Source of the DNA: a virus
Direction: 5' to 3' (one strand)
Length of the DNA stretch: 30,018 nucleotides
IMG/VR virus record: IMGVR_UViG_3300001589_000098
Span: 1-30,018 of that record
The first letter of the stretch is position 1; every line of letters starts with the position of its first letter. Both the position numbers and the translations under genes were made by a program. Of this stretch, positions 4,801 through 28,490 are shown piece by piece. Under the pieces are notes generated by a model, which worked only from the letters and a program-made list of their open reading frames with translations, was not told the DNA's origin and did not search any database.

Positions 4801-5221
4801 CTCAGATAATATTATTTTAAACAGTGCAACCTTTAAACCATTATTTGGAACCAAAGCCTCAGTTGAACTAAGAGCAACACTCAAGTGTGTTAAGAATCCG
4901 TCGAGTACTGCAAGCGTTAGTGAAATTAAAAGTCAGGTTGTAGCAAGTATGAATACATACTTTACTATTGACAATTGGGATTTTGGAGACACATTCTTCT
5001 TCTCAGAACTAAGTGCTTACTTGCACGACCAATTAGGAAGTATTATTTCAACAGTAGTTCTTGTTCCAGTAGATCCATTGAAGTCATTTGGTGATTTATA
5101 TGAAATTCGCAGCCAAGCAAATGAAATATTTGTAAATTCTGCCACAGTTAACGACGTTGAAGTAATTGACGCACTAACCAGTAGCCAATTGCGTACTGCA
5201 TCAAACAGCGGAGTAGTATAG
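1814..5221 (+). CDS. 6: gp6-like baseplate wedge protein, enlarged
   Basis: gp6 forms the ring of dimers that joins baseplate wedges around the hub. At 1135 residues this protein is far longer than T4 gp6 (660). The N-terminal 120 residues look typical of gp6: 'YREADFQSYDFETLRKSFIDY', 'YPE.FNDYIESSEFIALLD', 'NLRENF'-like 'DLNTRENF', then 'SYTPKRNTAASGFLKV'. A baseplate J-like core follows, with 'INLNFGDGVFSSIPVGS' near residue 340 and 'NIDDIKQRAPARFYTQNRMVNGEDY' near 410-435. The C-terminal end ('NWDFGDTFFFSELSAYLHDQLGSI' and the following strand, about residues 1050-1090) resembles the gp6 end that makes inter-wedge contacts. The extra length lies between these ends, about residues 520-1000, and includes an acidic 'DSDNDGVPDNPD' loop (residues 817-828). 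The start is set by AAGGA nine bases upstream. The next gene begins three bases after the stop. Confidence 0.88.
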   Translation: MAKTTRQTSIFGVEDWKRIYQTYREADFQSYDFETLRKSFIDYIRLYYPESFNDYIESSEFIALLDVMAFMGQAGSFRNDLNTRENFIDTAERRDSVVRLAELVSYTPKRNTAASGFLKVQSISTTEGVIDFTGVNLSNITVNWNDTTNANWLEQFTVIVNSCLDNTQRFGRPGNSQTILGVQTEEYGINLIQGFLPVIPFTNTVNGTTMSFEAVCATTQDQKYLYEPAPAPNGAFNILYRNDKQGYASANTGFFFLFKQGSLQDLDFNLGERISNRVVNVNIEGINNEDTWLYQLDSTGNIQNQWTLVENIYSGAVEELTPEQRRYFTTTSRTNDQINLNFGDGVFSSIPVGSFRTYVRSSNGLSYIINQDEMQNVTLSIGYVSRTGRNETLTLTCALTQPVSNAANRENIDDIKQRAPARFYTQNRMVNGEDYNNFPYTLYSTIIKSKAVNRSSIGTSRYLDLVDITGKYSSTNIFASDGMIYENTAVPSFTFTFVDQNDITDVIVNQVEPVLASRGMQEFYYENFIRPSLTSLNLNWSQSTTANNETTGYFKFVSSGAPAPVGPQASDNKQYIALGGLIKFVPPAGFYFNKFNRLIAGSPTLPGDKMVLWATVSALELDGTNQGVGNNADGTGPVTLNNFIPTLAVPTEVIPNFITDLPTAIETTMREQIELYRNFGLGYNNLTGTWYIITTTNLNSAITFSLANAQSTTGTGQDNSWLVAFETDGVTYTVSSRSLQRFWASVLETRFFYDGTQKVYDPKTGTVINDFINVLKTNSLPDSSATLNSDEVLDIIDQPVETDGFIDDFRVRISYKDSDNDGVPDNPDYFQTLVDPTVNPNNKRIYLQQTIDFDNLERYLPLAEGVVNGTLATEAAIELVKSEYPDAQIFYAYTDEKFYKLTVAYDGLRTIAQVTGYITYVGRQGLYFQYRHNAPLSRRIDPGTTNIIDIYLVTQAYYIAYQNYVTDSTGTVSEPAQPTIDELTTSYSTLDQYKMISDNIILNSATFKPLFGTKASVELRATLKCVKNPSSTASVSEIKSQVVASMNTYFTIDNWDFGDTFFFSELSAYLHDQLGSIISTVVLVPVDPLKSFGDLYEIRSQANEIFVNSATVNDVEVIDALTSSQLRTASNSGVV
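4262..4297 (+). other. Calcium-binding-type acidic loop in the gp6 insertion
   Basis: Residues 817-828 of the gp6-like protein read DSDNDGVPDNPD. This matches the Ca-binding loop of thrombospondin type 3-like repeats (DxDxDGxxDxxD). Only one clear copy is seen. Metal binding is inferred from the spacing of the acidic residues. Confidence 0.5.
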
Positions 5222-5224
5222 GTT

Positions 5225-8200
5225 ATGGCTAAAAGAATTCGCTCAGAAGACTTTCTACCAGAAATATTTCAAACTCCTGCTAACAAGCAATTACTTCGTA
5301 GTACTCTTGACCAACTTACACAAAACCCAAAGTTAAAGCCAACTGAAGGTTATATTGGACGTAAGATCGGTCCTGGTGTTACTGCATCTGATAGTTATGT
5401 ATTAGAACCAACTGCTAGTAGAACCGATTACCAACTTGAACCTGGAGTGGTACAACTCACACCAAATACCAACACTGTTGCAAATGCAATAACCTATCCA
5501 GGAATAATCGATAGTCTTGAGTTACAAGGTGCAAACGTGACACGCGATGATAGACTTTTTGATAGTGAGCATTATAGTTTTGATCCTTTTGTTGACTATG
5601 ACAAATATGTAAATTTTAGTCAGTATTACTGGGTGCCAGAAGGCCCGAATAGCGTTGATGTATTTGGAAATGCAATTCCGATTCGAGATACATTTGATGT
5701 AGCATATACCCAAGATGGTTATACTTTTTCAGGAGAAGCAGGAGCATTACCTACATTAACATTTGTTCGTCAAGGCGAATATACGTTTGACGTTAACGCC
5801 AGTGGCCGTCCATTTTGGATTCAAAGTGTCCCAGGAACATCAGGGGTACTTCCGCAACAACCAAACCAAAGCTCAAGACAAGTATTGGGTGTTGCCAACA
5901 ACGGCGACGACGTTGGAACAGTTGTATTCACAGTTCCTGCAAAAACAGATCAGAACTTTTTCTTTACCCTTGCTGACATTGGAAGCACGGATTTATTAGA
6001 AGACACATTACAGTTTAACCAAATAAACAATCAGTATGTTGACGTATTCAACGAAGCAAACGGCGGCATTGATGGAATAACAGACCTTGACGGTAGAACA
6101 CTTATCATCACAACAAATACTGATACTGGGTGGGAAGTACTTACACCGTTTGATGACACATTGTTTGACCAAGACAATCCAGGAATTCCTAATCCAGGCT
6201 TTGATAACAGTGTACCGTTAGCAACAGATCCTGAGCGTTATGTGCAATGGAGAATAACTTACAATTACGCAAATCCTCTTCGTCCATTTATGGAACTTAC
6301 AAAAGTTAGGAACATTGCTAACCTAAGCAAGTCTATCATCAACTACGGTACAGACTATGCAGGTGTTACCTTCTACAAAAATGCAGAAGGTACATTTACA
6401 CGTCAACCTCTTATAACTGCAAACCTCGATATACTCTACTATCAAGATCAAAGTGATGAAACAAACTTTGGTGTAATTCGTCTTGTTGATCAAGCCAATG
6501 CATCAGATCTCAGAGTTGATGATATCATTGGTAAAACAAGTTATACATCTCCAAACGGTGTTGTCTTTACAAACGGACTTAAGATACAATTTATTGGAAG
6601 TGTTGTTCCAACAAGTTATGAGAATAAAGAATACTATATTGAAGGAGTTGGTACTTCTATCGAACTTCTTCCAGTACCAAATTTTATTACTCCAGAAACA
6701 TATACAATTTCAACCACTGTCCCTTTTGATAGTACTGCGTTTGACGAAGGAAACTTCGACGCAACAAATAATGCTCCAACTGCACAAGATTATATGGTAA
6801 TAAACAGAGCCAGTATAGATCAAAATGCTTGGAGCAGAGGTAACAGATGGTTTCATATAGGTGTTCTCGAAGCAACTGCTACCTATAATAATATTGCTCT
6901 AGTAATTAACAATGATAATCGGGCTAAACGTCCAATACTTGAATTCAGAAAAAGTCTGAAACTTTTTAATTATGGAACATTTGCAACACCTGCAGTGGAT
7001 ATCATTGACTTCAAAGAAACAGATGCATTTTCAAACATCAACGGCACAATTGGTTACAGTGTAGATGGTTATGATTTGGTCGCAGGATCAAGAGTTATAT
7101 TTGCGGCAGATATTGATTTAGAAGTACGTAACAAGATTTATACTGTAAGTTTTGTAGATTTTGAAGATAGTAGTGTAGATGTTATTGACTTGCAACCTGC
7201 AAGTTTAACCACTCCTGATGTTCCAACAAATACAAATGTTATAGTCACGTCAGGTGTCATTGAACAAGGAAAGTCCTATTGGTTCAATGGAACAACTTGG
7301 ATATCAGGACAACAAAAAACTAGTGTAAATCAAGCACCATTGTTTGATATATTTGATAGCAGTGGTTATAGTTTCAGTGATACAACTGTATACCCAAGTA
7401 CAACTTTTAAAGGATCAAAGTTGTTTAGTTATGCAGTTGGCACAGGCACCACTGATACTGTAATTGATCAACCATTGAAATATCTAACCATTGCCAATGT
7501 TGGTGATATTGTTTTTGACAACAACTTATATGTCGACACATTTGTATATGTCAACGGAACAGTTAGTGTTACAAAAAACATTGACACAGGAACAGTTAGA
7601 CAGTATAATACTATAAGCACATTTGATAAGTTACTTGGATGGCAAACATCATTTGAAACAAACACACAACGACAGAGTTTCAGTTTTGATTATACTGGAG
7701 TTCCATTGGTATTGGATATTGAAGTCCTAAGTGATACATCAAAAATTCCAGTTAAGGTATTTGTTGAAGGACAGTTTGTTCTTCCAACCACATATACATA
7801 TGCAACCAATAGTGATAATGTAACAGTAATTACTTTTAATCCTAATCAGTTAGGACAACCTAACACAGTACCAGTTACTGGTGCTATTGTTGAAGCTCAA
7901 GTCCTTAGTAACAGTCCAAGCAGTATTGCATTTTATACTATTCCGTCAAATCTTGAATCAAACGCTATGAATGAAAATAGCAAGAGTTTTACGCTAGGCA
8001 CAGTACGTACACATTATGAAAGTATTTGTCAGAACTTAGAAAACTTCTCTGGTAAAATACACGGTGCCAATAACGTACGAGATTTAGGTAATGTTGTTCC
8101 TTATGGAGATCTAATACTCCAACAGAGTGCGCCAGTAACCATGATGACAAATTTCATCAATGGCAGAGACTTTGAATTTTTCCGTGCTATAGAATTTAAT

Positions 8201-11200
8201 AGTTCAGAATATAACAAGACTAAAAACAAGATTTTAGATTACGTTGCAAACAATGATTGGTCAGGAAAAACTACTGCACAAATACTTGATGCTACACTAT
8301 TGGGAATTAATGCAGGAAAGACTCAATCTAGTCCTTTTTATTGGACAGATGCAATCCCACATAGCAACACCTTTGAAACTACAACATACACAATCACACC
8401 AATAACAACCTATGTATTTGATACTCTTAACAGTTATGACTTAACCTCCGCAAACTACAAAGGCATATTAGTATATTACACCCCTAAGAGTACTGGCATA
8501 CAAACTATATTAGTCGGAGATGGCTATGAGTACACAGTAGCAACTGATGGTCCAAGAATTACAATCAACAGTACCTATATAACACTAAACATTGGTGATA
8601 TAATTACCATAAACGAATATGCCACAACTTATGGAAGTTATGTACCAGCAACACCTAGTATGATGGGATTGTATGGCATATATCGTCCGCAAGAATTTTT
8701 AGACAATACATACGTAACACCAACAAATGTAATACAAGGACACGATGGTAGTTTAACTGTAGCATTTGAAACAGGTGACTACAGAAATGCTGTTTTATTA
8801 GAATTTGAAAAGAGAATTTATAATAACATAAAGATAAATGTAGCAGAAAGATATGATCCACCACTTCAAGCAGTTAATGTTATTCCAGGACAGTTTAGAA
8901 CAACCGATTATACTCTAACCGAAGTCAACGATATATTGAATGTTAGTTTCTTATCATGGGTTGGTGAAAACCGTGTACCGTACAAAAATCAAACATACAT
9001 TGCAGACGATGGATTTACTTGGAATTATAGTCAAAGTGAAAACAGATTATCTGGTGTTCCTCTATTAGGTTTCTGGAGAGGAATATATTTCCAGCTCTAT
9101 GATACTGATTCACCTCACACTCGTCCATGGGAAATGGTTGGATTAACTGAACAACCAACTTGGTGGCAAACAACTTACGGACCAGCTCCATACACATCAG
9201 GTAATACGGTTCTATGGAATGACATGGCCCAAGGTATTGTTGCTTATCCAACTGGCAATGTGATAAGAAAACAATATATTCGCCCTGAATTATTACAATG
9301 TATCCCAACTGATTCACAAGGAAATCTAGTACCTCCAATTGATAGTATTGTTGGCAGTTACGATGTAGACAGCTTTAAAAAATCGTGGGTAGCAGGAGAT
9401 ATGGCACCTACTGAGGATGCTTGGAGACGAAGTAGTTACTATCCTTTTGCAATACAACGATTACTAGCACTAACAAAACCTGCACAGTATTTCTCAATAT
9501 TTGCTGATAGAGATCTATACAAGTACAATACAGAATTCTACCAATACTTGTATAATAATAGATTCCGCATTGATCCAAGTGTGATAAGCGTGTATGGTAA
9601 TGAAACAATCAAAAACAGTTATATTAACTTTATTGTTGATTACAATAGAGTCACAGGTTTAGATAGTACCACTGCACTAAAGGCCACTCTATCAAATATG
9701 GATATTCGATTGTGTTATCGAATGGCAGCATTTAGTGATCAAGGATACTTAAAAATATTTTCTGAAAAGTCGTCACCAAACAGTCTAAACAGTAGTTTGT
9801 TGTTACCAGATGAGAGTTATCAACTATTTCTTTATCAGAATCCAAGTTTTGCCGAGGTGCAGTATTCAAGTGTTACAGTTCAAAGAACCAGTGGCGGATG
9901 GTCAGTGTCGGGTTATTCAACAGTTAAACCTTACTTTGAAATATTACAAAGTACTATTGCTGGAACTTTCAGTACCATAACAGTAAATGGAAACACAGTT
10001 CGTATTGCAGAAACTTTTACAAAAAATGTTATTCAGGTTCCTTATGGTTATGTGTTTGCAACTGCAAATGCAGTGGTTGATTTTTTAGTTAGTTACGGCC
10101 AATTATTGACACAACAAGGACTGACCTTTGATAGTACAGAGAATCAAGTTATTCTCAACTGGACACAAATGGCAAAGGAATTTCTATACTGGGTAGGACA
10201 GGATTGGATTGTAGGAAGTATTATTAATCTTAACCCTTCTGCAAATGTTCTAAAATTAGAAAAGCCGAACAGTGTTGTTGAAAGCCTGATTAATGAAAAT
10301 ATCAACGATGTGATGTTGAACCAAAACTTTGGTCCGTTGCTTGGCAAAGATTATGCAGTTGAAAGACTTGGTAACGAACTTAAACTAATTGGAGTGAACA
10401 ACCAAACATTTAGTTTGTTGGCAGCAAGATTTACTTCATATGAACATATTATTGTATTTGATAACGTTAGTATCTTTAACGATTTGATATATCAACCCAT
10501 AACTGGTGCAAGACAAAATAGATTATTATTAAATGGCAATACAGTTTTTGATTGGAATGGTACACTTGATGCACAAGGTTTTATTCTCAATCAGGATAAC
10601 ATTAAGGAATGGGTACCAAATAATTCATATACTAAAGGACAAATTGTACTTTATAAAAATGCATATTGGAGTGCAACAAGATTACTATCACCAAGTGAAA
10701 CATTTGTTTTTGCTGATTGGATCAAGAGTGATTATGCCCAAATACAAACTGGATTACTGCCTAACCTTGCAACCAAAGCAGATAGCCTACGTGAAAATTA
10801 TGATATACACACTGCCAATCTTGAGAATGATTCAACACTGTTAGGACTAGGACTTATTGGATTTCGTCCAAGGCAGTATATGCAAAATTTAAACCTAGAT
10901 GATATTTCACAAGCTGGATTGTATTCACAGTTCTTAGAAACAAAAGGAACACTCACTGCTGCTGAAATTTTTACAAGTGCAAATCTTGGTAAAGAAGAAG
11001 CAGAGTATGAGATTTTTGAAAACTGGGCAATACAACGTGGTATCTATGGTGCTAATGCAAACAGAAGTTATTTTGAATTACGCACAGACGAAAGTAAATT
11101 ATTAAGTAATCCAAGCACTATTGCAGTTATTGATCCACAAGAGGTATCAACTGCTAATCAAACAGTATTAGTTGAAGATATTTGGAAACAAAGTTATAAA

Positions 11201-14200
11201 ATTACAAATAAAAATATTTTACCAACAGTGACAAAAATTCCAGAAGATGTAAGCCTGCCGTCTGCTGGTTATGTAAACTATGACGATGTTGATATTAAAG
11301 TTTTTGATTATAATGATTTAACAAACGTACTTGCTAATTTAGATAATATATCACTTGGTACAAATATTTGGGTAGCCAAAGCAAACTCATACGATTGGAA
11401 CATATACAGAACCAACCTAGTACCAGCTAGTGTTATATCAGTAACAGACAATCTAAATGAAACAAGTACTCTAACGTTTGATGTCAATCACGGATTATCT
11501 GTCAATGATAGAATCATAATCAAGTACTTTAGTACATCAGTGGATGGTGCTTATATTGTTGGTACTGTTCCAGGGTTAAAAACTGTAACACTTACACTTA
11601 GTCTTCCTGGAGAAACAGTGTCTATAACAGGTGATGGTCGTGCATTTATTCTTGAAAGTGTGCGTGTAAAACAAGCAAGTGATGTTGCTGATTTAAGTTT
11701 TGCAAATAATATTGTTCCAGGAAATCAGGCATGGGTAGATGACTACGGTGATGGAAACTGGGCAGTACTACAAAAAATTAATCCTTTTGGAACTCCGACA
11801 GAAATTGACGCTGATACACCTGTATTAAATGATCTTTATGGAACCACAGTAGAACAAGGATTGATAGGTCAAGGACTAGCAATTGGTGCTCCAGGTTATG
11901 CAAGTGGCAAAGGTGCCGTATACTGTTATGGAAAATCAGATACTAATACGTACAAAGAAGTAACTATAATGACACCAACTGCAACAGGTTTTGTAGGTAC
12001 TGGTACAAGTTTAAGTGTTGGAAATACCGAGTGGGTGGCTACTGGTGCTCCTGCTAGTGATAGTAATAAAGGTTACGCTATAACGATAAAACGTAATAGT
12101 TCCAATGGCGAATATACGCAGACACAACTTTTTAATACAGGAACCGCTGATGCAGATAAGTTTGGGCAAGATGTCGCATTAAGTGATGACGAGCGTTGGT
12201 TGTATATAAGTGCTCCTGAAGATAACAAAATTTATGCATACAATAAAGTTGATGTTCAAGGACAAACACTTAATTTTACAGGCGATGGCTCGACGACTGA
12301 TTACCTAATCGAAGGTAGCATTATAGTAAGTGCGACAAACGGTACCGCACAAACACAAATTGGAGTGACAAGAAACAATGTGTCACAAACTGCAGGTGTA
12401 GCATTTACAGTAGTTGATGACGCTAATAGTAAACAAGTAGTTAGATTTACAACTGCACCTAATAATAACGATAAAATAAGAGTCACAAGGTTGCAGGGTG
12501 TTACATATCTTCCAAGCGTTCCAACCACGGCTTTTAGTACTGCAACATTGTTTACAGTGAACGACATCTATAGTTTTTCAGTGTACTATAACGGAGCACT
12601 ATTACGTCCAATATTTGACTATACTTTTGCTGGTAGCACTGTAACATTGATATCAAGTATTAACTCAGGAACACTTTTGATAGATTCAAAAGACAGTTGG
12701 GATTTTGTATCGACTATCGCAGTATCAGGTGCTAGTGCAGGCGACCTAGCAGGCGAAAGTATTAGCACTACAACTGACGGAAGAAACCTAATAATTGGTG
12801 CTCCTAAGACGGATATAACTGTTGGGTCTGTTACAACTACCGACGCAGGTGCAGTTACAATATACGACAGAAGTGTAGAACGTTTTCAAGTTACTGTTGC
12901 TTCTACAACTACACAAAATTTTACAACCACAGATACACCAGTTGGAGCCGTAACCGTTACTGTAAATGGTACGTATCTAGTTCCTACTGCTAATGCAAAC
13001 AACGCACAATTCAGCGTATCAGGAACCACTATAACAATAGGTACTACAACAAATCCATTTATACTCAATATTGGCGATATAGTAGAAATTGAAACAAACA
13101 TATTCAGACTAGTACAAACAATTAATGCAACTACTTTAGGACAAAATTATCAATTTGGAAGTGTTGTTGATATGTGCTCTACAAACTGTAGCCTTTATAT
13201 TTCAGAACCAAATGACAGTTTGCTAGTACCAGAAGGCGGAAGTGTTGATAGATGGATTAATCAAAGCAGACTGTTTGGTACTATTACAGGAACTGTTGCA
13301 AATCCTGTCTTGACTGCCACAAATAGTATTAGGATTAATAATTACTATGTCACACTCACAGGTACAACTATTGCAAGTCTTGTTACTGATATCACAACTG
13401 CTGACATACCAAATATAAATGCCGCGAGTGTTAATGGCGCTCTACAAATTACGCTAGTGGATGTACAGGCAGGCGAAGAATTTATAAAATTACAGGTTGC
13501 TCCAGGTACTGGCACGGCATTTGCTGATCTTGGGCTTACACCAATTGTATATGCACAAACAATCGTTGCACCAATATTAAATGATTATGGACATTTTGGA
13601 CAAAGTTTAAAGATTGATAGCACTGCCACAACACTAGTTGTTGGATCGCCAGATGCAACTGCTAACTTACCCACAACATTTGACCTTGGTACTACCTTCT
13701 TCGACTCAAAGAGCACTAACATTGTTGATTCCTTAAATGAGTCGGGTGTTGTATACACATACAATTTTTTAAATGCGGCTAACGCTAGTGCTACTAATCC
13801 TGGCAAGTTTGCATTTGGACAACAGATATTTGATACAAGTATTACAAGTTTTGATAAATTTGGTAGTGCAGTTGACTATTATGACGGCATCTTATTAGTT
13901 GGTGCCCCAAATGACGATCTAAACGATAGCTCTGGTGATTTTGGCAGAGTAACTCAATTAACAAACGCTAATAAAGAATCAGCATGGAAAGCAATTTACA
14001 CACAACAACCAATTGTTAATGCCTCATTGCTTAACAGTGTGTTTACATATAATAAAGGAAGCAACGAAGTTACTACCTACTTAGATTTTATTGACCCTCT
14101 GCAAGGTAAGATATTAGGAGCAGCACAAGCAAATATTGATTACACAGGTGGTATTGATCCAGCAGCCTACAACACAGGAACTGTAAACAATTTTGGCTCG

Positions 14201-17200
14201 CAGTGGACTACTACTTATCTAGGTGAAATATGGTGGGACCTATCAACTGTGCGTTTTATTGATTATCACCAGGATACTATTGAATACAAGGCACGTCGTT
14301 GGGGACAGTTGTTTGACGGTTCGTCAGTAGACGTTTATCAATGGACTAAAAATACAGTAGCACCAGCAGATTACACAGGCGAAGGCGAAGTTTACACTAC
14401 TGAAAGTTATGTAATAACCAGCGAACTTGATAGTGCAGGTACATTTATTACCTATTATTACTATTGGGTTAAAGGGTTATTAGCAGTAAGTCCAAACAAA
14501 ACCTTAAGCTCAGTCGGCATTGCACAATATATTTCTAATCCACGATCAAGTGGAATATCATATACCGCTGCTATTAGTCCAAGTACAATAAGTTTGTATA
14601 ATTGTAGAAATTTATTTTCAGCAAAAGATACAATACTACATGTAGAATTTGACAAGATTGAAAACAACGATAACGTTCACAGTGAATATGATTTAATTAC
14701 CGTAGGTAATGCAAACAGTTTCTTAGGTGGTGGACTTTATAGAAAATTCTTAGATAGTTACTGTGGTGAAGACACCCTTGGTAATCTTGTACCAGATGCT
14801 ATATTAAGCGTTGCAGACAAGTATGGTGTTAGTTTTCGTCCAAGGCAAAGTTTCTTTATTAATAGATTCCTTTCACTTCAAAACTATATGACTCGGGCTA
14901 ATAAGATAATGAAATTGTATCCAATATCTGATAGCAAAAGTTTTAAGTTGCTCAACAGTGAAGAACCAGAACCAACTTCAGCAAGTAGCGAATGGGACAA
15001 ACGTTTATTAACCTACGCTGAACTTACATATCAAGATCTACGTCAAGTAGCAGTGGGTTACAAATATCTTATAGCAAGTGATAGTACACAAGAGGGATTG
15101 TGGACAATTTATACTGTGCAAGCAGAACAAAAACTATTACTGTCAAGAGTACAAAACTACGATACAAAACTATACTGGAGTTATGTAGATTGGAATGGCA
15201 TAAATGCAGATTTTACGACCTATAGTAGTGCAAATGCCAGCACTTATGATGTAAAATTGTACAGTGATTTATTAGCATTAACTAATGTAGTTGACGGTGT
15301 ATGGGCAACGGTACAAGCAAACAGTTTTGGAAAGCAAGAAGTATATCAATATAGCACAACAACCAGTGAATGGACAAGAGTTTTCTTAGAAGATGGTACT
15401 GTTGCAATTGATAGTACTATTTGGAATTATGCAGATGGTAACTTTGGGTTTGATGTTGAAGTCTTTGATGCACAACGTTTTGATCAAGCACCAAATATTG
15501 AAACAAGACAAATACTTAAAGCTCTAAACGAAGAAATATTTACTACTGATCTACAAAAATTTAGAAATGAATTGCTTATACTGACGTTTGAATTTATAAT
15601 GAGTGAGCAACCAGCTCCAGATTGGTTATTCAAAACAAGTTTAATTGATGTTAATCATAAAATACGTGACTTAATTGAATATCCAATTTACAGACGTGAT
15701 AATCAAGACTTTGTTAGTGAGTATATTAACGAAGTTAAGCCTTACCATGTTCAAGTAAGAGAATTTAACTTGCGTTACGAAGGCGAAGATACGTACAACG
15801 GTAGTATAACAGACTTTGACTTACCAGCATACTACGATAGTCTAAGAGGACAGTTTGTATCACCTATATTAGATGATAGCGAAAATCCAAAATCGCTAAG
15901 TGCATTACCAAGTACTAGTGTTGTTTGGCAAACATTTCCATGGAGTCAATGGTATAACAACTATAAATTAGTAGTTAAGAGTGTAACAGTTCTTAAACCA
16001 GGATCGGGTTATACTGTTGCACCTCAGGTTATTGTAACTGGTGATGCAATAACACAAGCAACCATGACTGCAACTGTTAATACTGCTGGCGAAGTAATAA
16101 GAATAAACTTAGTAACTGCTGGCAGTGGTTATACAACAACACCAACGCTGACAATATCAGGTGGAAATGGCACAGGTGCTACTGCAATATCAGTTTTGGA
16201 ACCACAACAAGTACGTGATTTTACAACCACTATAGCATATGACAGAATAACATACACAAGTCAAGTTGTTGATTGGACTGCAAATACTGCATATACTGCA
16301 AATCAATTAGTACGTTTTCCTGTACCAACTGTTGGAGTAATAAATGCTTCTTTACCTCAAGTATACAATGTAACAACTAACTTTACCAGCGGAACTGCAT
16401 TTGATCCAGACAACTATACTGTGGTTGATCCGGCTACATTAGATGGTGCAGATAGAACTATCGGATTGTATACACCTGAGCCAAACGAACCAGGACGTGA
16501 ATTAGCACAAGTGATGTCTGGAATTGACTATCCAGGAGTACAAGTTGAAGGTCCAGACTTTAATCAGAATACAGGCTATGACGTAGGTAACTTTGATATT
16601 AATCCATATGACAACATAGATATTGGCCCAGAAGGATTGCCAACATACGATCCAGGAATACTCGATGTGATATACGAAAGTTCATTCACAGACACATATT
16701 TAGGTACAAGAGCAACAGATATCAACGTAGACGGCGGTGGATTTATTGACACATATAGTTCACATGCTCCAGAAGAACTAATTCCTGGTAGTGAATTTGA
16801 CACACTTGATTTGAAGGTTTACACTCGTCCGGGCAGTGATTGGAATAACGATGGACACGGATTTAGTATCAATAGTATAAGTGTTGTCTATACTGGAGTT
16901 AATACAACTATTCATTTTGCAGATGTTATTTTACATCCAGTTGGTGTAGAACTTGTTAATCTTTCTGGAGGTCAAGTAATCTTTCCTACAGAAAACTACA
17001 CAGTAAATTGGATAACAAAAACTGTTACTGTTACCAATCTTGGTTCTGTAGTTGGAATTGGAGATACCTTAGACTTGCAAGTTTATGGAATTGGTGGCGG
17101 ATCACAACTATATAAAGAAAGTTTTATTGGTAATCTAATTGATTCTAAAACAGAAATTATCCCAGTTGCCTATACTGAAATAAACGAAATGGTTATATTT

Positions 17201-18826
17201 GTTAACGGTAGTGTTATTACTGGTTATACATATGCAGCTTCTGGAACTTATTCAACACTAGTGACATTTGACACACAATACACTGCAACAGATTGGGTAA
17301 CAATAGTTGCACTTGGTGCAACAACTCCTGTGCAATATTCATGGAGCACACCACAAAGACAATATTTTACATATGATGGATCAAGTACACAATATCCATT
17401 AACAAACAGTTTACAAGGTACAAATATTGCTAACATGACAGTTGAGCGTGACGGACTTCGACTTCGTCCACCAGAAGGTATTGAATATACCAGTGACGGT
17501 TCAAGTCTTGGCCCTTATTATCTAAGTACAACTGCTGGTACAAATCAAAGTCTTATTGCTGATAATGATGTGTTGGTATATGTTGATAATGTGCAAAGTA
17601 CTCTTGCAGTCAATTGGACTTTAAGTACATACGACGGCAGTAGTGACAGATTCGTAGCGTTTAATTCCAATAGTCAACCAGCGGACAAAGCAAGTATTAA
17701 GATTTTTACTACCACAGAAGCTGATTACACTGTTGTGAACGTTAGTGATTTAAATCTAAGAGTAAGTGCAGCTGAAAATGCACCATTTACAGTTTCCACT
17801 TACAATGACACTGCTCAACAAAACATACTTACAAAGGTATATGTTGGACCAACCACACAAGGTGTTACTACTGGTGTATCATTTGATGAAGATCCATATG
17901 ATTCGACTGAATTTGATAAAACAGTTGGATCAACTATTCAAACCAACAACTTTGCACTTGGTCGACTAATTGAAAATTCTGGAAGATTAACGGTAACACT
18001 AAATGGTGATCGTTTATCTGACACAATTGGTTTTACATTAAGTACCGGAACTGATGGATTTAGTATTCTAACTGTAAGTGGCAGTATCCTTGGTGCAGCA
18101 GATGTACTTGCAGTAACAATGTTTACTAATACTGTTGTTCCAAATAGTTTAAATTTCCGTATCTTCCAAGATATGCTCGGCAATCAAAAATTATTGAGAT
18201 TGAATACCAAGAATACTACGAAGTTGATACAAGATGTAACTGCTAGTGCAGATGTTATATATTTCCAAGATGTAAGCAAACTTAGTGAACCAAATTTAGG
18301 ATCAAATATATTTGGTCAGGTAATGATTGGTGCAGAAAGAATTACATATAGAACAAGAGATACAGGCAACAACACAATTAGTGGATTGCGTAGAGGAGTA
18401 GCTGGCACAAGTGCAATGTCTCACAGTACAGGCGCTATTGCAAGTGATGTTGGTCCTGGAGAACAATTGCCTACTGTATATCAAGAAAAAACAACAACAG
18501 ATAAAACAAACTTAGGTGACGGAACTAGAACAAGATTTACTACAAGCATCATAGTTCCAACACAAATTGACAGTACAGAAAACAGCGAATCAATAACTGT
18601 AACAGTCGCAGGAGCAGTGTTAGTTCCAGAAACTGATTACACAGTAACAGGCATAGATACAACTTTTACAGAAATAACATTAACAACCGCACCTGCTAAT
18701 GGAGTTGAAGTGTGGTTTAGTCAGGTAACAGCTAACGTAATGTATGCTCAAGGAAGTAGTACTGCAAGTAATGGCATTGCATTACAAGATCAGACAACTG
18801 CGGCGGCATTATTTTTAAAGAGTTAA
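5225..18826 (+). CDS. Giant (4533 aa) modular baseplate/tail structural protein in the gp7 position
   Basis: One uninterrupted frame of 4533 codons directly follows gp6 (3-base gap; GGAG at 5210-5213). T4 has gp7 (about 1030 aa) here, so it may be a greatly expanded gp7 or a fusion with later wedge or fibre parts; I cannot align it to T4 gp7. From N to C it shows: a start 'MAKRIRSEDFLPEIFQT' and 'FVDYDKYVNFSQYYWVPEGP' (about 115-137), shared in my recollection with large virion proteins of marine T4-like phages; a cupredoxin-like segment (176-256); a Trp/Tyr-rich central part (about 1250-1580); a seven-unit FG-GAP propeller (2205-2912); a GSGYT double repeat (3593-3650); 'EELIPGSEFDTLDLKVYTRPGSDW' around 3850-3875; at least nine 'VNG...DYTV' beta modules; and near the end 'GAERITYRTRD' plus 'GLRRGVAGT'. 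No signal peptide, membrane segment or protease motif was seen. Composition is Thr/Ser/Asn/Gly-rich, as for beta-rich fibre proteins. The structural role is well supported; the gp7 identity is tentative. Confidence 0.8.
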   Translation: MAKRIRSEDFLPEIFQTPANKQLLRSTLDQLTQNPKLKPTEGYIGRKIGPGVTASDSYVLEPTASRTDYQLEPGVVQLTPNTNTVANAITYPGIIDSLELQGANVTRDDRLFDSEHYSFDPFVDYDKYVNFSQYYWVPEGPNSVDVFGNAIPIRDTFDVAYTQDGYTFSGEAGALPTLTFVRQGEYTFDVNASGRPFWIQSVPGTSGVLPQQPNQSSRQVLGVANNGDDVGTVVFTVPAKTDQNFFFTLADIGSTDLLEDTLQFNQINNQYVDVFNEANGGIDGITDLDGRTLIITTNTDTGWEVLTPFDDTLFDQDNPGIPNPGFDNSVPLATDPERYVQWRITYNYANPLRPFMELTKVRNIANLSKSIINYGTDYAGVTFYKNAEGTFTRQPLITANLDILYYQDQSDETNFGVIRLVDQANASDLRVDDIIGKTSYTSPNGVVFTNGLKIQFIGSVVPTSYENKEYYIEGVGTSIELLPVPNFITPETYTISTTVPFDSTAFDEGNFDATNNAPTAQDYMVINRASIDQNAWSRGNRWFHIGVLEATATYNNIALVINNDNRAKRPILEFRKSLKLFNYGTFATPAVDIIDFKETDAFSNINGTIGYSVDGYDLVAGSRVIFAADIDLEVRNKIYTVSFVDFEDSSVDVIDLQPASLTTPDVPTNTNVIVTSGVIEQGKSYWFNGTTWISGQQKTSVNQAPLFDIFDSSGYSFSDTTVYPSTTFKGSKLFSYAVGTGTTDTVIDQPLKYLTIANVGDIVFDNNLYVDTFVYVNGTVSVTKNIDTGTVRQYNTISTFDKLLGWQTSFETNTQRQSFSFDYTGVPLVLDIEVLSDTSKIPVKVFVEGQFVLPTTYTYATNSDNVTVITFNPNQLGQPNTVPVTGAIVEAQVLSNSPSSIAFYTIPSNLESNAMNENSKSFTLGTVRTHYESICQNLENFSGKIHGANNVRDLGNVVPYGDLILQQSAPVTMMTNFINGRDFEFFRAIEFNSSEYNKTKNKILDYVANNDWSGKTTAQILDATLLGINAGKTQSSPFYWTDAIPHSNTFETTTYTITPITTYVFDTLNSYDLTSANYKGILVYYTPKSTGIQTILVGDGYEYTVATDGPRITINSTYITLNIGDIITINEYATTYGSYVPATPSMMGLYGIYRPQEFLDNTYVTPTNVIQGHDGSLTVAFETGDYRNAVLLEFEKRIYNNIKINVAERYDPPLQAVNVIPGQFRTTDYTLTEVNDILNVSFLSWVGENRVPYKNQTYIADDGFTWNYSQSENRLSGVPLLGFWRGIYFQLYDTDSPHTRPWEMVGLTEQPTWWQTTYGPAPYTSGNTVLWNDMAQGIVAYPTGNVIRKQYIRPELLQCIPTDSQGNLVPPIDSIVGSYDVDSFKKSWVAGDMAPTEDAWRRSSYYPFAIQRLLALTKPAQYFSIFADRDLYKYNTEFYQYLYNNRFRIDPSVISVYGNETIKNSYINFIVDYNRVTGLDSTTALKATLSNMDIRLCYRMAAFSDQGYLKIFSEKSSPNSLNSSLLLPDESYQLFLYQNPSFAEVQYSSVTVQRTSGGWSVSGYSTVKPYFEILQSTIAGTFSTITVNGNTVRIAETFTKNVIQVPYGYVFATANAVVDFLVSYGQLLTQQGLTFDSTENQVILNWTQMAKEFLYWVGQDWIVGSIINLNPSANVLKLEKPNSVVESLINENINDVMLNQNFGPLLGKDYAVERLGNELKLIGVNNQTFSLLAARFTSYEHIIVFDNVSIFNDLIYQPITGARQNRLLLNGNTVFDWNGTLDAQGFILNQDNIKEWVPNNSYTKGQIVLYKNAYWSATRLLSPSETFVFADWIKSDYAQIQTGLLPNLATKADSLRENYDIHTANLENDSTLLGLGLIGFRPRQYMQNLNLDDISQAGLYSQFLETKGTLTAAEIFTSANLGKEEAEYEIFENWAIQRGIYGANANRSYFELRTDESKLLSNPSTIAVIDPQEVSTANQTVLVEDIWKQSYKITNKNILPTVTKIPEDVSLPSAGYVNYDDVDIKVFDYNDLTNVLANLDNISLGTNIWVAKANSYDWNIYRTNLVPASVISVTDNLNETSTLTFDVNHGLSVNDRIIIKYFSTSVDGAYIVGTVPGLKTVTLTLSLPGETVSITGDGRAFILESVRVKQASDVADLSFANNIVPGNQAWVDDYGDGNWAVLQKINPFGTPTEIDADTPVLNDLYGTTVEQGLIGQGLAIGAPGYASGKGAVYCYGKSDTNTYKEVTIMTPTATGFVGTGTSLSVGNTEWVATGAPASDSNKGYAITIKRNSSNGEYTQTQLFNTGTADADKFGQDVALSDDERWLYISAPEDNKIYAYNKVDVQGQTLNFTGDGSTTDYLIEGSIIVSATNGTAQTQIGVTRNNVSQTAGVAFTVVDDANSKQVVRFTTAPNNNDKIRVTRLQGVTYLPSVPTTAFSTATLFTVNDIYSFSVYYNGALLRPIFDYTFAGSTVTLISSINSGTLLIDSKDSWDFVSTIAVSGASAGDLAGESISTTTDGRNLIIGAPKTDITVGSVTTTDAGAVTIYDRSVERFQVTVASTTTQNFTTTDTPVGAVTVTVNGTYLVPTANANNAQFSVSGTTITIGTTTNPFILNIGDIVEIETNIFRLVQTINATTLGQNYQFGSVVDMCSTNCSLYISEPNDSLLVPEGGSVDRWINQSRLFGTITGTVANPVLTATNSIRINNYYVTLTGTTIASLVTDITTADIPNINAASVNGALQITLVDVQAGEEFIKLQVAPGTGTAFADLGLTPIVYAQTIVAPILNDYGHFGQSLKIDSTATTLVVGSPDATANLPTTFDLGTTFFDSKSTNIVDSLNESGVVYTYNFLNAANASATNPGKFAFGQQIFDTSITSFDKFGSAVDYYDGILLVGAPNDDLNDSSGDFGRVTQLTNANKESAWKAIYTQQPIVNASLLNSVFTYNKGSNEVTTYLDFIDPLQGKILGAAQANIDYTGGIDPAAYNTGTVNNFGSQWTTTYLGEIWWDLSTVRFIDYHQDTIEYKARRWGQLFDGSSVDVYQWTKNTVAPADYTGEGEVYTTESYVITSELDSAGTFITYYYYWVKGLLAVSPNKTLSSVGIAQYISNPRSSGISYTAAISPSTISLYNCRNLFSAKDTILHVEFDKIENNDNVHSEYDLITVGNANSFLGGGLYRKFLDSYCGEDTLGNLVPDAILSVADKYGVSFRPRQSFFINRFLSLQNYMTRANKIMKLYPISDSKSFKLLNSEEPEPTSASSEWDKRLLTYAELTYQDLRQVAVGYKYLIASDSTQEGLWTIYTVQAEQKLLLSRVQNYDTKLYWSYVDWNGINADFTTYSSANASTYDVKLYSDLLALTNVVDGVWATVQANSFGKQEVYQYSTTTSEWTRVFLEDGTVAIDSTIWNYADGNFGFDVEVFDAQRFDQAPNIETRQILKALNEEIFTTDLQKFRNELLILTFEFIMSEQPAPDWLFKTSLIDVNHKIRDLIEYPIYRRDNQDFVSEYINEVKPYHVQVREFNLRYEGEDTYNGSITDFDLPAYYDSLRGQFVSPILDDSENPKSLSALPSTSVVWQTFPWSQWYNNYKLVVKSVTVLKPGSGYTVAPQVIVTGDAITQATMTATVNTAGEVIRINLVTAGSGYTTTPTLTISGGNGTGATAISVLEPQQVRDFTTTIAYDRITYTSQVVDWTANTAYTANQLVRFPVPTVGVINASLPQVYNVTTNFTSGTAFDPDNYTVVDPATLDGADRTIGLYTPEPNEPGRELAQVMSGIDYPGVQVEGPDFNQNTGYDVGNFDINPYDNIDIGPEGLPTYDPGILDVIYESSFTDTYLGTRATDINVDGGGFIDTYSSHAPEELIPGSEFDTLDLKVYTRPGSDWNNDGHGFSINSISVVYTGVNTTIHFADVILHPVGVELVNLSGGQVIFPTENYTVNWITKTVTVTNLGSVVGIGDTLDLQVYGIGGGSQLYKESFIGNLIDSKTEIIPVAYTEINEMVIFVNGSVITGYTYAASGTYSTLVTFDTQYTATDWVTIVALGATTPVQYSWSTPQRQYFTYDGSSTQYPLTNSLQGTNIANMTVERDGLRLRPPEGIEYTSDGSSLGPYYLSTTAGTNQSLIADNDVLVYVDNVQSTLAVNWTLSTYDGSSDRFVAFNSNSQPADKASIKIFTTTEADYTVVNVSDLNLRVSAAENAPFTVSTYNDTAQQNILTKVYVGPTTQGVTTGVSFDEDPYDSTEFDKTVGSTIQTNNFALGRLIENSGRLTVTLNGDRLSDTIGFTLSTGTDGFSILTVSGSILGAADVLAVTMFTNTVVPNSLNFRIFQDMLGNQKLLRLNTKNTTKLIQDVTASADVIYFQDVSKLSEPNLGSNIFGQVMIGAERITYRTRDTGNNTISGLRRGVAGTSAMSHSTGAIASDVGPGEQLPTVYQEKTTTDKTNLGDGTRTRFTTSIIVPTQIDSTENSESITVTVAGAVLVPETDYTVTGIDTTFTEITLTTAPANGVEVWFSQVTANVMYAQGSSTASNGIALQDQTTAAALFLKS
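5750..5992 (+). other. Cupredoxin-like segment, copper ligands not evident
   Basis: Residues 176-256 of the giant protein read as a cupredoxin-like beta domain: 'PTLTFVRQGEYTFDV', then 'GRPFWIQS', then 'GVANNGDDVGTVVFTVP', then 'FFFTLADIG'. Family members usually end this unit with a Y-x-C-x-x-H stretch that binds copper. Here the matching place is 'FFFTLADIGSTD', with no Cys or His, so it is probably a structural copy of the fold. Confidence 0.5.
11837..13960 (+). repeat. Seven FG-GAP-type repeats (predicted beta-propeller) in the giant protein
   Basis: Seven units with the FG-GAP/integrin-alpha pattern (G.s......d....GAP......G.vy.y) start near residues 2205 (IGQGLAIGAPGYASGKGAVYCY), 2256 (TGTSLSV..TEWVATGAP), 2309 (DKFGQDVALSDD...YISAPED), 2505 (LAGESISTTTDG..LIIGAP), 2638 (NYQFGSVV......LYISEP), 2787 (HFGQSLKIDS....LVVGSP) and 2877 (DKFGSAVDYYDGILLVGAP). 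Seven units would close one propeller, as in integrin alpha heads. Units 3-4, 4-5 and 5-6 are separated by 100-160 residues carrying other beta modules, so the ring would display inserted domains. Integrin-type acidic Ca loops (DxDxDG) are weak or absent. Confidence 0.7.
15977..16198 (+). repeat. GSGYT double repeat in the giant protein
   Basis: Two adjacent beta units about 40 residues apart share the core pattern 'V......GSGYT..P...I.G': one with GSGYT at residue 3593 and one at 3633, the second followed by 'TLTISGGNGTGATA'. Such GSGY-P-V repeats are common in large tail and surface proteins. The copies differ in sequence, so this is an old duplication. Confidence 0.6.
16946..18725 (+). repeat. 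Cluster of 'VNG...DYTV...' beta modules at the C-terminal end of the giant protein
   Basis: A module of about 40-50 residues with the pattern 'v.V.VnG..l....dYTv......itf..aP..gd.i.i' recurs near residues 3908 (PTENYTVNWITKTVTV), 3988 (MVIFVNGSVITGYTY), 4252 (LTVTLNGDRLSDTIGFTL) and 4454 (ITVTVAGAVLVPETDYTV), with a more divergent stretch at 4070-4160. Earlier copies lie near 845 and 1080, and between the propeller units near 2379, 2451 and 2576. The copies are highly diverged in DNA, so they are protein-level repeats and not recent duplications. They probably form stacked beta domains along a fibre or wedge arm. Confidence 0.6.
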
Positions 18827-19545: not shown

Positions 19546-20934
19546 ATGTCATATACCATTAACTTAACCGATGGTACAATTTTTGCAGTTGTTGCGGATG
19601 GTACTATCAATTCCGACTCAAGCCAAACGCTAGTTGGAAAAAACTACGCTGGTTACGGTGAGTTCTTAGATGAGAACTTCATACGTTTGCTTGAAAATGC
19701 GGCAAATACATCAGCACCAGGTGCACCACTTACGGGTCAACTTTGGTATGATAAAACTAACAATGTGATGAAAGTATACAACGGAACAACTTTTAAAGTT
19801 ATTTCGGCTGCGACTGCATCAACTGGTCAACCTACTTCAAATGTAGCAGGTGACTTATGGTTTGATACCACAAACGACCAACTTAAAGTATACAACGGAA
19901 CTGCTTTTATAACAATTGGTCCAAGTTTTACAAGTGGTGAAGGAACTTCAGGTGCTATAGTAACAACCATCACAGACAACGGTGCAAGTGATCACGTTGT
20001 TGTACAAATGTTTGTAAACAATACAATTGTTAGTATATTCTCAAAAGATGCAACATTTACTCCGGCATCAGCAATTTCTGGTTTTGCAACAATTGGTCCA
20101 GGCTTAAACATGAGCACTACAGTATCAAATGCAGTGTTTAACGGAACTGCAACAAACGCTGATACACTGGATACTTTGAATTCAACTTCATTTATGAGAT
20201 CAGACGCAGCCACAAGTAACAATACAAGTATTAGTATTACAAGTGATACTGGATTGTATGTTGGCGGCGACAGTGACGCAAGAATATTTGTTACTGGAAC
20301 AGATGTATACCATAATAACCAAACACAAGATGGTGATATAATTTTTCAAGTCAACGATGGTGGTGTTACAACAACAGCATTAACAATTGACGGTGCAACC
20401 GCAGCCTTGGTTGCCGCTAAAACAATAACTCTAAACTCAGGTGATGCAGTCACTGCTCTAATAAATGGTGGCACAGCCGGAGTAGGAAATATTGGTACTG
20501 CTAGTTTTCCATTTAACACATTACATGCTAAGGCAACATCAGCAGAATATGCTGATATGGCTGAGCGTTTTCATGCAGATGCAGAATATACTGCAGGAAC
20601 AATTGTGGAACTAGGCGGTGTAAACGAAGTCACACTTTGCGTTGAAGAATTAAGTGATAAAGTGTTTGGTGTTGTTTCAACAAAGGCAGCCTATTTAATG
20701 AACGGCAATGCAGGATCAAATGCTACACATCCACCAATCGCAATGGCAGGAAGAGTTCCTGTAAACGTAATAGGATTCATTACAAAAGGTGATAGACTTG
20801 TGAGTGCCGGAAATGGCGTAGCAAGGTCAGCAAACTTAGATGAAACAACAGCTTTTAATGTAATTGGAAGAGCTTTAACGGGCAAAACAGACGAAGGAAT
20901 TGGTAGTATAGAAGCTATTGTTAAGATAGTGTAA
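19546..20934 (+). CDS. Tail fibre-like protein with duplicated 'LWYD..YNG' unit and a conserved C-terminal domain
   Basis: This is a 462-residue fibre-type protein. The N-terminal 55 residues ('YTINLTDGTIFAVVADGTI', 'YGEFLDENFIRLLENAAN') look like an attachment domain seen in fibres of marine myophages. Two copies of a 23-residue unit follow: residues 64-86 (GQLWYDKTNNVMKVYNG...) and 102-124 (GDLWFDTTNDQLKVYNG...). The middle is Ser/Thr/Asn-rich beta structure. The C-terminal 135 residues start 'LHAKATSAEYADMAERFHAD' and run through 'GVVSTKAAYLMNGNAG' and 'IAMAGRVPVNVIG'. This resembles the C-terminal domain grouped with peptidase G2 / intramolecular chaperone-like domains in phage fibres; I did not locate a cleavage residue. 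It probably contacts the host or helps trimer folding. The start is supported by GGAG at 19533. Confidence 0.72.
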   Translation: MSYTINLTDGTIFAVVADGTINSDSSQTLVGKNYAGYGEFLDENFIRLLENAANTSAPGAPLTGQLWYDKTNNVMKVYNGTTFKVISAATASTGQPTSNVAGDLWFDTTNDQLKVYNGTAFITIGPSFTSGEGTSGAIVTTITDNGASDHVVVQMFVNNTIVSIFSKDATFTPASAISGFATIGPGLNMSTTVSNAVFNGTATNADTLDTLNSTSFMRSDAATSNNTSISITSDTGLYVGGDSDARIFVTGTDVYHNNQTQDGDIIFQVNDGGVTTTALTIDGATAALVAAKTITLNSGDAVTALINGGTAGVGNIGTASFPFNTLHAKATSAEYADMAERFHADAEYTAGTIVELGGVNEVTLCVEELSDKVFGVVSTKAAYLMNGNAGSNATHPPIAMAGRVPVNVIGFITKGDRLVSAGNGVARSANLDETTAFNVIGRALTGKTDEGIGSIEAIVKIV

Positions 20935-26103: not shown

Positions 26104-27050
26104 ATGTAAATGTAATTACCAGTGATAGTCGAGTTTGGAATTTAGGCGAAGTTGTTACTACTATTGCACAAGCAAAAAGTCAAGACCAAGATTTGGTACT
26201 GAATTTAAAAAACGAAGGGCCAGACTTTAGTACACTTGGGTTAGATAACTATTTGACCGACTGGCAAAATCGAACAACAGTAGTTACAAGAAATGCTGTG
26301 CAATCTCCGTTAGGAAAAATAAAATTTCACCAAGAATGGCCTCATTTTTTAATCACCACACGAGAAGATTTACAACATCTTACTGTTAACAAAAAAATTG
26401 AAAAACCTTTTGGTTGTTTTATTGGCCGCAGCAACGCTCCAAGATTATACTTGAGCAGTTACCTCTATAATAAAAAGTGTGCAGTACAAACGTTTCATTA
26501 TAATCCAAATCATGAATTCCACAGAAGCAATCTTGGATTAGACAACATTATGGAGCAGTATGGATTTAACGGAGTACACCAAACACTACCACTGTTATCA
26601 CAGTCACCTGTAACATTTGAAGAAATCGTAACTTATCCAATACATATGAGACAACACAATAATATACATTATGCTTATTTAAATTTTTTGGTTGAAATTG
26701 TTTGTGAATCATACTATAATGGACGTACATTCTTTCCTACTGAAAAAACATGGCGTCCTATCATTTTAGAAACCCCATTTATAATACAAGGACCACAATG
26801 GTATCTACGTCGACTGAAAGATTTAGGTTTTAAAACATTTGATCAATGGTGGGATGAAGGATACAGTGAAGATCCTGCTGACCATCAACTAGATGAGATT
26901 GTAAAAGTTATTGATTTTTTAGCAGAAAAAAGTTTAACCGAACTTGATACAATGTATCAAGAAATGCAACCAACCCTAAAGCATAATAAAAAATGTTTCA
27001 TGGAATTAACCAGCAAAGATTTTGAAATCTTTAAACATGACAGATACTAA
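26100..27050 (+). CDS. Glycosyltransferase-like protein with TEKTWRPI motif, 316 aa
   Basis: The C-terminal half holds 'NFLVEIVCESYYNGRTFFPTEKTWRPIILETPFIIQGP' (TEKTWRPI at 214-221), then 'LKDLGFKTFDQWWDEGY'. This pattern is typical of a glycosyltransferase-like family common in marine phage and bacterial surface-sugar clusters, related in layout to GT10-type fucosyltransferases. The middle segment 'CFIGRSNAPRLYLSSYLYN' (106-123) fits the donor-side strand-loop. A second member starts at 29309, where 'NHFLNVVSETE' matches the 'NFLVEIVCES' block just before TEKTW. It overlaps the preceding oxygenase-like gene by four bases and the radical SAM gene by 14. I am confident of the family resemblance, less so of the exact reaction. 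Confidence 0.65.
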   Translation: MNVNVITSDSRVWNLGEVVTTIAQAKSQDQDLVLNLKNEGPDFSTLGLDNYLTDWQNRTTVVTRNAVQSPLGKIKFHQEWPHFLITTREDLQHLTVNKKIEKPFGCFIGRSNAPRLYLSSYLYNKKCAVQTFHYNPNHEFHRSNLGLDNIMEQYGFNGVHQTLPLLSQSPVTFEEIVTYPIHMRQHNNIHYAYLNFLVEIVCESYYNGRTFFPTEKTWRPIILETPFIIQGPQWYLRRLKDLGFKTFDQWWDEGYSEDPADHQLDEIVKVIDFLAEKSLTELDTMYQEMQPTLKHNKKCFMELTSKDFEIFKHDRY

Positions 27051-28476: not shown

Positions 28477-28490
28477 CCATAATTATTAAT

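Follow-up and report, generated by a model that had tools for sequence, protein, structure and literature searches.

We examined a 30,018-nucleotide stretch of viral DNA (IMG/VR virus record IMGVR_UViG_3300001589_000098, positions 1 to 30,018; hereafter the window) and focus here on a giant open reading frame (ORF) whose product carries, in its middle part, a predicted beta-propeller of the integrin-alpha type. A first-pass annotation, made from the sequence alone, had proposed seven FG-GAP units at 11837-13960, other modules inserted between the blades, and a location in a phage baseplate protein. The giant gene, the propeller and its units lie as follows (nucleotide positions in the window, strand):

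5225-18826, +: giant baseplate-associated virion protein, 4533 amino acids (aa), phrog_10938 family (ORF, translation, PHROG profile)
11759-14011, +: predicted seven-bladed integrin-alpha-type beta-propeller with inserts, residues 2179-2929 (AlphaFold2, VIA-align)
11828-11944, +: FG-GAP unit 1 core, residues 2202-2240 (blade model, 45 bits)
11981-12103, +: FG-GAP unit 2 core, residues 2253-2293 (36 bits)
12149-12259, +: FG-GAP unit 3 core, residues 2309-2345 (47 bits)
12737-12874, +: FG-GAP unit 4 core, residues 2505-2550 (36 bits)
13145-13264, +: FG-GAP unit 5 core, residues 2641-2680, with a C-x3-C pair (50 bits)
13583-13744, +: FG-GAP unit 6 core, residues 2787-2840, with a long loop, TFD(x3)TxFD(x3)T (39 bits)
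13847-13960, +: FG-GAP unit 7 core, residues 2875-2912 (34 bits; best FG-GAP_2 stretch 2875-2904)

The giant protein contains seven FG-GAP units

The seven FG-GAP cores span residues 2202-2912 (nucleotides 11828-13960 of the ORF at 5225-18826), which bears out the number and the location first proposed. Pfam FG-GAP_2 (PF14312) passed its cut-off on the whole protein (30.4 bits against 23; E = 4.4e-7) and reached 43.7 bits (E = 3.1e-11) on an 800-aa piece. The classic FG-GAP family PF01839 did not pass on an 800-aa piece (14.4 bits against 22.1) and had no match in the Pfam search of the window's own record.

A loose regular expression recovered five of the seven units together with a stray match at residue 4393 (six hits; 200 shuffles averaged 0.86 and never exceeded 5), and a strict one recovered three units (mean 0.04, maximum 2 in 1000 shuffles). 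The loose expression by itself is not decisive, and units were therefore called with a hidden Markov model (HMM) of the blade, built from the 13-row clade that contains the window, a unit being counted at a score above 0 or above 5 bits. At a score above 0 the model found seven units in every one of the 13 clade rows. Of the 70 more distant rows, which were preselected by likeness to the propeller HMM and gauge unit retention rather than propeller frequency, 49 had exactly seven; the remaining 21 had four (one row), five (five rows), six (eight rows) or eight units (seven rows). Above 5 bits, exactly seven units were found in 20 of the distant rows, six in 23, five in 17 and fewer in 10. Shuffling each row once left no unit in 66 of the 70 distant and 11 of the 13 clade rows and one in the others; reversed rows had none in 64 and 12, respectively, and one or two in the others. 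On the basis of the regular-expression shuffles and these controls we reject chance repeats as the source of the units.

Predicted structure of the propeller

Residues 2118-2970 were modeled with AlphaFold2. The propeller HMM matched 176 ORFs, 146 of which spanned the propeller, and 86 representatives plus the window were chosen at less than 85% identity; exclusion of four doubtful sequences (L096, L157, L178, L192) gave an alignment (A6) of 83 rows, of which 82 share 25-82% identity with the window. The resulting model has a mean predicted local distance difference test score (pLDDT) of 90.2 and a predicted template modeling score (pTM) of 0.88, with the blade pattern repeated seven times. 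An earlier model of 1101 residues from 20 close rows (pLDDT 41.9) was superseded by the one from the 83 more diverse rows.

VIA-align, which covered the 1000 chains ranked best by Foldseek (960 aligned), placed integrin alpha-M at the top (Z 36.2, 2.5 Å over 356 residues, model residues 69-808), and all 50 listed entries are integrins (Z 36.2 to 32.2; aligned identity 15-19%). The resemblance to integrin alpha heads that had been supposed from the unit count is thereby corroborated. Ranked by E-value, Foldseek listed Elp2 first and then mostly integrins, with modest integrin template modeling (TM) scores (at most 0.58 by target in the rows listed). Compared with the sequences of solved structures, the 83-row profile matched 3hfq, an uncharacterised protein that we take to be a seven-bladed propeller (E = 4e-4), and integrin alpha-IIb (E = 0.0015). 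In the model, four-stranded blades superpose on integrin alpha heads, as expected of an integrin-alpha-type seven-bladed fold, and the alignment to these heads suggests that the ring is closed.

The predicted fold is that of an integrin-alpha propeller, yet we do not class the protein as an integrin subunit, because integrin-type calcium loops were not found in the propeller: the two matches to the pattern D.[DN].[DN]G, at residues 3832 and 3872, lie outside it (a degenerate site would escape this pattern). The whole-protein Pfam scan returned no integrin family, and the stretch downstream of the propeller aligns with phage baseplate-family proteins.

Modules inserted in blades 3, 4 and 5

Successive GAP prolines in the window are spaced by 53, 55, 196, 135, 147 and 86 residues. 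By our assignment from the strand list of the model, the three main inserts each separate strand 3 from strand 4, in blades 3, 4 and 5:

12260-12694, +: insert 1, blade 3, two tandem beta modules, residues 2342-2423 and 2425-2490 (model strands, module HMMs)
12881-13105, +: insert 2, blade 4, one beta module, residues 2553-2627 (model strands, module HMM)
13265-13558, +: insert 3, blade 5, residues 2681-2778 (model strands; no Pfam match)

Three module inserts had been anticipated and are present; the sizes proposed for them (100-160 residues) need revision, the excess over the ~54-residue spacing being ~140, 80 and 93 residues, with a further ~32 in blade 6. The two modules of insert 1 are weakly related (7.6 bits for the HMM of the first against the second), and both HMMs also match residues 4429-4497 of the giant protein (30.1 and 17.7 bits); insert 1 alone had no Pfam match and no convincing solved relative. 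The model of insert 2 has an additional weak match at residues 1102-1130. The idea that insert 3 is a flagellin-IN-like module received no support from Pfam, and we do not claim it.

Across the 83 rows the GAP-proline spacing is 25-130 residues between blades 1 and 2 (median 58), 32-187 between blades 2 and 3 (median 57), 49-409 between 3 and 4, 56-223 between 4 and 5, 57-269 between 5 and 6, and 77-106 between 6 and 7, the smallest values coming from compact distant rows (L150 and L278 among them), in which the alignment is less sure. Relatives mostly retain the units, and the modules in blades 3-5 differ in size; the blade HMM counts and these spacings agree for the most part with the first-pass expectation that the seven units are kept while the insertions vary.

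The C-x3-C pair of blade 5 (residues 2651 and 2655; 13175-13189) is Cys in 70 and 69 of the 83 rows, respectively, and possibly forms a disulphide or a metal site.

The giant protein follows gp25-like and gp6-like genes

Three other genes of the window bear on the position of the giant protein and on the comparisons below:

1380-1760, +: gp25-like baseplate wedge protein, 126 aa (phrog_43, E = 1.7e-13)
1814-5221, +: gp6-like baseplate wedge protein, 1135 aa (phrog_10646, E = 1.9e-277; phrog_219, E = 3.1e-27)
19546-20934: tail-fibre-like ORF, 462 aa (weakly matched by PHROGs for virion structural and tail fibre proteins; phrog_21412, E = 2.4e-9)

The gene order is gp25-like, gp6-like and then the 4533-codon ORF; in T4, gp6 is followed by gp7. 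The ORF matches phrog_10938 ('virion structural protein', E = 6.3e-295), and this profile match together with its place after gp25 and gp6 assigns it to that family. It shares with T4 gp7 the position directly after gp6; hhalign of three core profiles with T4 gp7 as a single sequence gave probabilities of 0.2-0.9%. Profile searches of the PDB with two core regions returned nothing convincing (one match at E = 0.67 for one region, none for the other). An assembly artefact is rejected as the origin of the giant ORF, which was found again in many contigs.

By tblastn the giant protein had matches in the records of 59 named phages, and 57 of these records exceed 280 kb. One homologue, CBB_236, was detected in the virion by mass spectrometry with 21 peptides, according to the available text of PMC5259590 (we equate CBB_236 with FDG95_gp236 from its number and its neighbour CBB_237); another, PA5oct gp355, is a virion protein by mass spectrometry according to a note in its record. 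In phAPEC6, gp245 (381.9 kDa) adjoins the wedge protein gp244 in the part of PMC7247149 consulted, and is likely a homologue by its size and position. Gene order and the mass spectrometry of homologous virion proteins support the giant protein as a phage baseplate protein, the placement first suggested.

The propeller occupies a fixed insertion site

Conserved stretches frame the site that holds the propeller:

11255-11293, +: conserved frame before the variable site, LPSAGYVNYDDVD, residues 2011-2023 (similar stretch by eye in the RaK2, CBB, PA5oct and SCTP-2 homologues without propeller)
14093-14173, +: conserved frame after the site, DPLQGKILG...DPAAYN, residues 2957-2983 (aligned in the window and seven named phages, the residues D, P, G, Y, D, P and Y being invariant)

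A DNA pattern for the core found at least 120 viral-contig stretches, and all 120 listed match the core HMM. Of the listed rows, 85 reach the end of the N-terminal core and 37 of these have both flanks. Among the matches listed, FG-GAP_2 (E up to 0.01) occurs in 27 of 38 sequences, namely the 37 both-flank relatives and the window. The blade model calls a propeller (two or more units above 5 bits, or a sum above 25) in 28 of the 38, or 27 of the 37 environmental relatives without the window. A scan of viral contigs with alignment A5 (propeller and flanks) gave 523 related places, of which the best 80 were retained.

None of the eight named homologues (PA5oct, SCTP-2, Phosso, Atu_ph07, Vibrio 2.275.O, RaK2, CBB and RAS14) was called as propeller-bearing; the same site holds other material or little, with no blade unit above 5 bits and, in PA5oct, one hit barely above 0. 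A tblastn search of named phages with the propeller region alone gave nothing at 1e-5, and absence from cultured phages was therefore judged on the giant-protein homologues. In a tree of the upstream core (52 rows, midpoint root), all 34 rows called with a propeller fall within one clade of 37 (Shimodaira-Hasegawa-like approximate likelihood-ratio test, SH-aLRT, 99). The uncalled rows of this clade are L107 and L179, which are identical, and L136, with a sub-threshold FG-GAP_2 match; the distribution needs at least three changes. These three may have diverged propellers rather than losses.

The A5 search of genome contigs found no relative (56 pattern matches, none confirmed) and so gave no host clue. 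A search for photosystem genes in three long relatives (records of 316-364 kb) found none, and there was no sign of a cyanophage there.

At the same site, SCTP-2 (L029) has by eye the look of a LamG-type jelly roll, a name that no search supported, and Phosso (L030) and Atu_ph07 (L031) have ~1350 residues of repeated glycine-rich modules by eye, without a propeller. Phosso also has a separate 11-kb ORF that weakly resembles the L145 propeller interval (E = 6e-6). A match to the T7 tail-fibre N-terminal domain was seen in the interval in one of the 38 members of alignment A4 (E = 2e-7), a member outside the ten covered by a further scan.

Block exchange of the propeller between lineages

We compared divergence inside and outside the propeller, taking codons 1-2178 and 2930-3540 as core and codons 2179-2929 as propeller. 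The comparison used 20 of 43 loci; L001 and L036, identical to the window over 1101 residues, were not included. Region divergence was estimated for four pairs. Between the window and L057 the core has 88.6-94.4% DNA identity and a synonymous divergence (dS) of 0.23-0.46, whereas the propeller has 68.2% and dS 1.53. The window and L042 likewise share 86.3-89.9% (dS 0.49-0.57) in the core and 73.8% (dS 1.84) in the propeller. With L069 the relation is reversed, the core being at 76.2-80.6% (dS 1.27-2.11) and the propeller at 85.1% (dS 0.73). The edges of these changes in identity, together with conflicting trees, define the following tract:

11642-13894, +: tract exchanged between lineages, about codons 2140-2890 (identity edges against L057, L042 and L069; conflicting trees)

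The upstream edge lies at about codon 2140 (L069) or 2170 (L057) and, less sharply, about 2230 (L042), and the downstream edge at about codons 2850-2890; the edges are near the propeller ends, with blade 7 mostly outside the tract.

Trees of the two regions (18 of 21 rows; L056, L062 and L066 omitted) disagree. The core tree groups the window with L057 and L042 (100/100). In the propeller tree the window groups with L069 (100/100), L057 with the L047 group (97/97) and L042 with the L055 group (96/96). Approximately unbiased (AU) tests rejected window+L057 (p = 1.3e-18) and window+L057+L042 (p = 7.5e-5) for the propeller and window+L069 (p = 1.9e-7) for the core, although the groups were picked after the divergence table had been seen and the p values are somewhat flattering; the log-likelihood differences of the swapped groupings are large (304-453). 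Elsewhere the window and L057 are close, with protein identities of 100% for gp25, 97.6% for gp6 and 95.9% for the gene after the giant protein. The tail-fibre-like gene is 88.5% identical in L057 and 85.9% in L042, though their propellers differ. The propeller behaves as a cassette that lineages exchange as a block, and this behaviour is what is new here.

Mean protein identity over 20 relatives is 67.3% in the blades, 57.2% in insert 1 and 78.4% in insert 3; outside the propeller it is 71-81% up to residue 4000 and 66.2% in residues 4001-4300. In this comparison L056 and L062 were trimmed at an incorrect start. Farther downstream, at 16862-18214 (codons ~3880-4330), DNA identity to L057 is 44-82% in 20-codon steps over codons 3880-4339. 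The steps before codon 3880 are at 87-95% in four of five and 70% in one, and the four steps after 4339 are at 92-100%. This stretch is possibly a further exchanged module.

Proposed role of the propeller

To our knowledge, little has been established about how uncultured jumbo phages recognise their hosts. Host-recognition parts are commonly exchanged as blocks inside a conserved baseplate, and because such exchange typifies them we modestly favour reading the propeller as an interchangeable host-recognition head within the baseplate protein. That the propeller is exposed on the virion, that it binds, and that host range explains its exchange are inferences. In this reading the giant protein, encoded next after gp25 and gp6 among the baseplate genes of a T4-related jumbo phage, displays a predicted seven-bladed integrin-alpha-type propeller at one site between two conserved stretches; the propeller would most likely contact the host surface, protein or glycan, as the recognition head of the baseplate. 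Lineages swap it as a block, probably through recombination near its ends, and the modules inside blades 3-5 vary further and would alter its surroundings. A wider proposal, plausible though we would not wager on it, is that uncultured aquatic jumbo phages of one large clade recognise their hosts mainly through an integrin-type propeller set in a wedge-position baseplate protein rather than through a tail fibre, the seven-blade chassis being kept, swapped nearly whole and refitted with modules in blades 3-5.

Several observations weigh against a recognition head. One of the four pairs, window and L041, has no contrast between core and propeller, and codons ~3880-4330 and, more weakly, 201-400 also diverge from L057. 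The loops after the GAP motif show no more variation than whole blades do (68.4 against 67.3% mean identity over the 20 relatives), insert 3 ranks among the conserved regions, and the long loop of blade 6, though a candidate functional site, is conserved (D2820 in 100% and D2827 in 99% of the 83 rows). The eight isolates without a called propeller indicate that it is dispensable for baseplate function as such, and block exchange is also typical of other exposed parts or of a recombination hot spot.

The main rival to the recognition head is a docking hub, in which the propeller is a platform inside the virion for tail fibres or decorating proteins and its exchange follows that of the partner. 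Propellers often act as protein platforms, a tail-fibre-like ORF is close by, and the conserved TFD..TxFD loop might serve as a fixed contact. That ORF, however, was not exchanged with the propeller in L057 or L042, a weak argument that covers the nearby gene only, and we regard a docking hub as unlikely. A domain that binds or cleaves glycans, with capsule or lipopolysaccharide as its target, in company with a CBM_5_12-like stretch and the variable beta modules, appears less probable again. The CBM_5_12-like stretch (residues 1795-1816, E = 5.9e-4) is below the cut-off; among the matches listed, CBM_5_12 occurs in 7 and CBM_X2 in 2 of the 38 A4 members, in or beside the interval. In the window protein, however, no enzyme family scored above its cut-off (Lactonase reached 14.1 bits against 21.7 on an 800-aa piece), and we know of no enzymatic activity in integrin heads.

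The propeller might instead merely fill a tolerated insertion site as a structural spacer, its divergence reflecting a recombination hot spot without adaptive value. Relatives with other material or little at the same site would fit such a spacer, as would the recurrence of the insert 1 module type elsewhere in the giant protein; retention of the units across large divergence, and an exchange that takes in most of the propeller and breaks off near either end of it, speak against it and make it the most improbable of these explanations.

The natural swaps of this ~700-codon propeller among otherwise similar baseplates single out one domain for host-recognition tests, and they supply a marker that metagenome surveys could correlate with hosts. 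Here a baseplate core is also seen to accept different modules at one fixed position.

Comparison with known propellers and giant virion proteins

The window propeller resembles the integrin alpha head in its seven FG-GAP units and in its fold match to alpha-M. Some integrins likewise have an extra domain among their blades, the I domain, which enters between blades 2 and 3; the window inserts lie instead between strands 3 and 4 of blades 3-5. The window propeller also differs in having no DxDxDG-type calcium loop and in its low sequence identity to the listed integrins.

The giant-protein family is already known from cultured jumbo phages, and a seven-bladed baseplate propeller has a precedent in phiKZ gp131. 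The passages available from PMC4901313 describe a C-terminal seven-bladed propeller in gp131 (PDB 4GBF) at the baseplate periphery and speculate, without confirmation, that it is a receptor-binding domain or a cell-degrading enzyme. The likeness is that here, too, a jumbo myophage baseplate contains a seven-bladed propeller; by that description alone, the gp131 propeller differs as a C-terminal domain, not one in mid-protein in the gene after gp6. 4GBF is absent from the 50 rows listed by Foldseek and from those listed by VIA-align, which carries no weight either way. The same passages (PMC4901313) describe five-bladed propellers, with a cavity that might accommodate GlcNAc, in the phi11 receptor-binding protein Gp45. 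Gp45 likewise places a propeller in a baseplate protein but has five blades and is, so far as described there, a separate trimeric receptor-binding protein of a Staphylococcus phage.

The giant virion proteins of RaK2, CBB, PA5oct and Atu_ph07 (phrog_10938) share the position after gp25-like and gp6-like genes; the small gene that precedes gp6 is annotated as hypothetical in RaK2 and Atu_ph07. The PA5oct protein has a homologous core (27.1% identity over 55% of a 2950-aa query, E = 3e-105). These proteins differ in having no called propeller, and FG-GAP_2 is found in one of the nine members of alignment A1, which is the window itself.

Phages and giant viruses also encode stand-alone FG-GAP proteins, and predicted structures of an Atu_ph07 'Hemagglutinin protein' (393 aa), a protein of cyanophage S-TIM5 (407 aa) and 'FG-GAP repeat' proteins of uncultured Caudovirales match the model; one gene annotated with FG-GAP repeats sits among the genes after a tape-measure gene. 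Unlike the window propeller, the viral stand-alone proteins are entries of ~390-475 aa and not a domain of the gene after gp6. In the part of PMC5259590 consulted, CBB_550, 552 and 554 are Kelch-type propeller proteins of a RaK2-like phage, with CBB_552 in the virion; as described there they differ in propeller type and belong to another gene cluster.

We found no description of an integrin-type propeller in a phage baseplate protein in the open-licence literature (titles and abstract openings, mostly outside subscription papers), and the passages available from PMC4901313, PMC10743442, PMC9700779 and PMC9123017 do not mention one.

Other features of the window

The CBM_5_12-like stretch lies upstream of the propeller at 10607-10672, scores under the curated cut-off and is present in six of the nine members of alignment A1 (the window and the set of named relatives). 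At 27022-29324 a radical-SAM-like ORF is followed by a nucleotide-sugar epimerase-like ORF, perhaps a pair of glycan-modifying genes beside the tail block.

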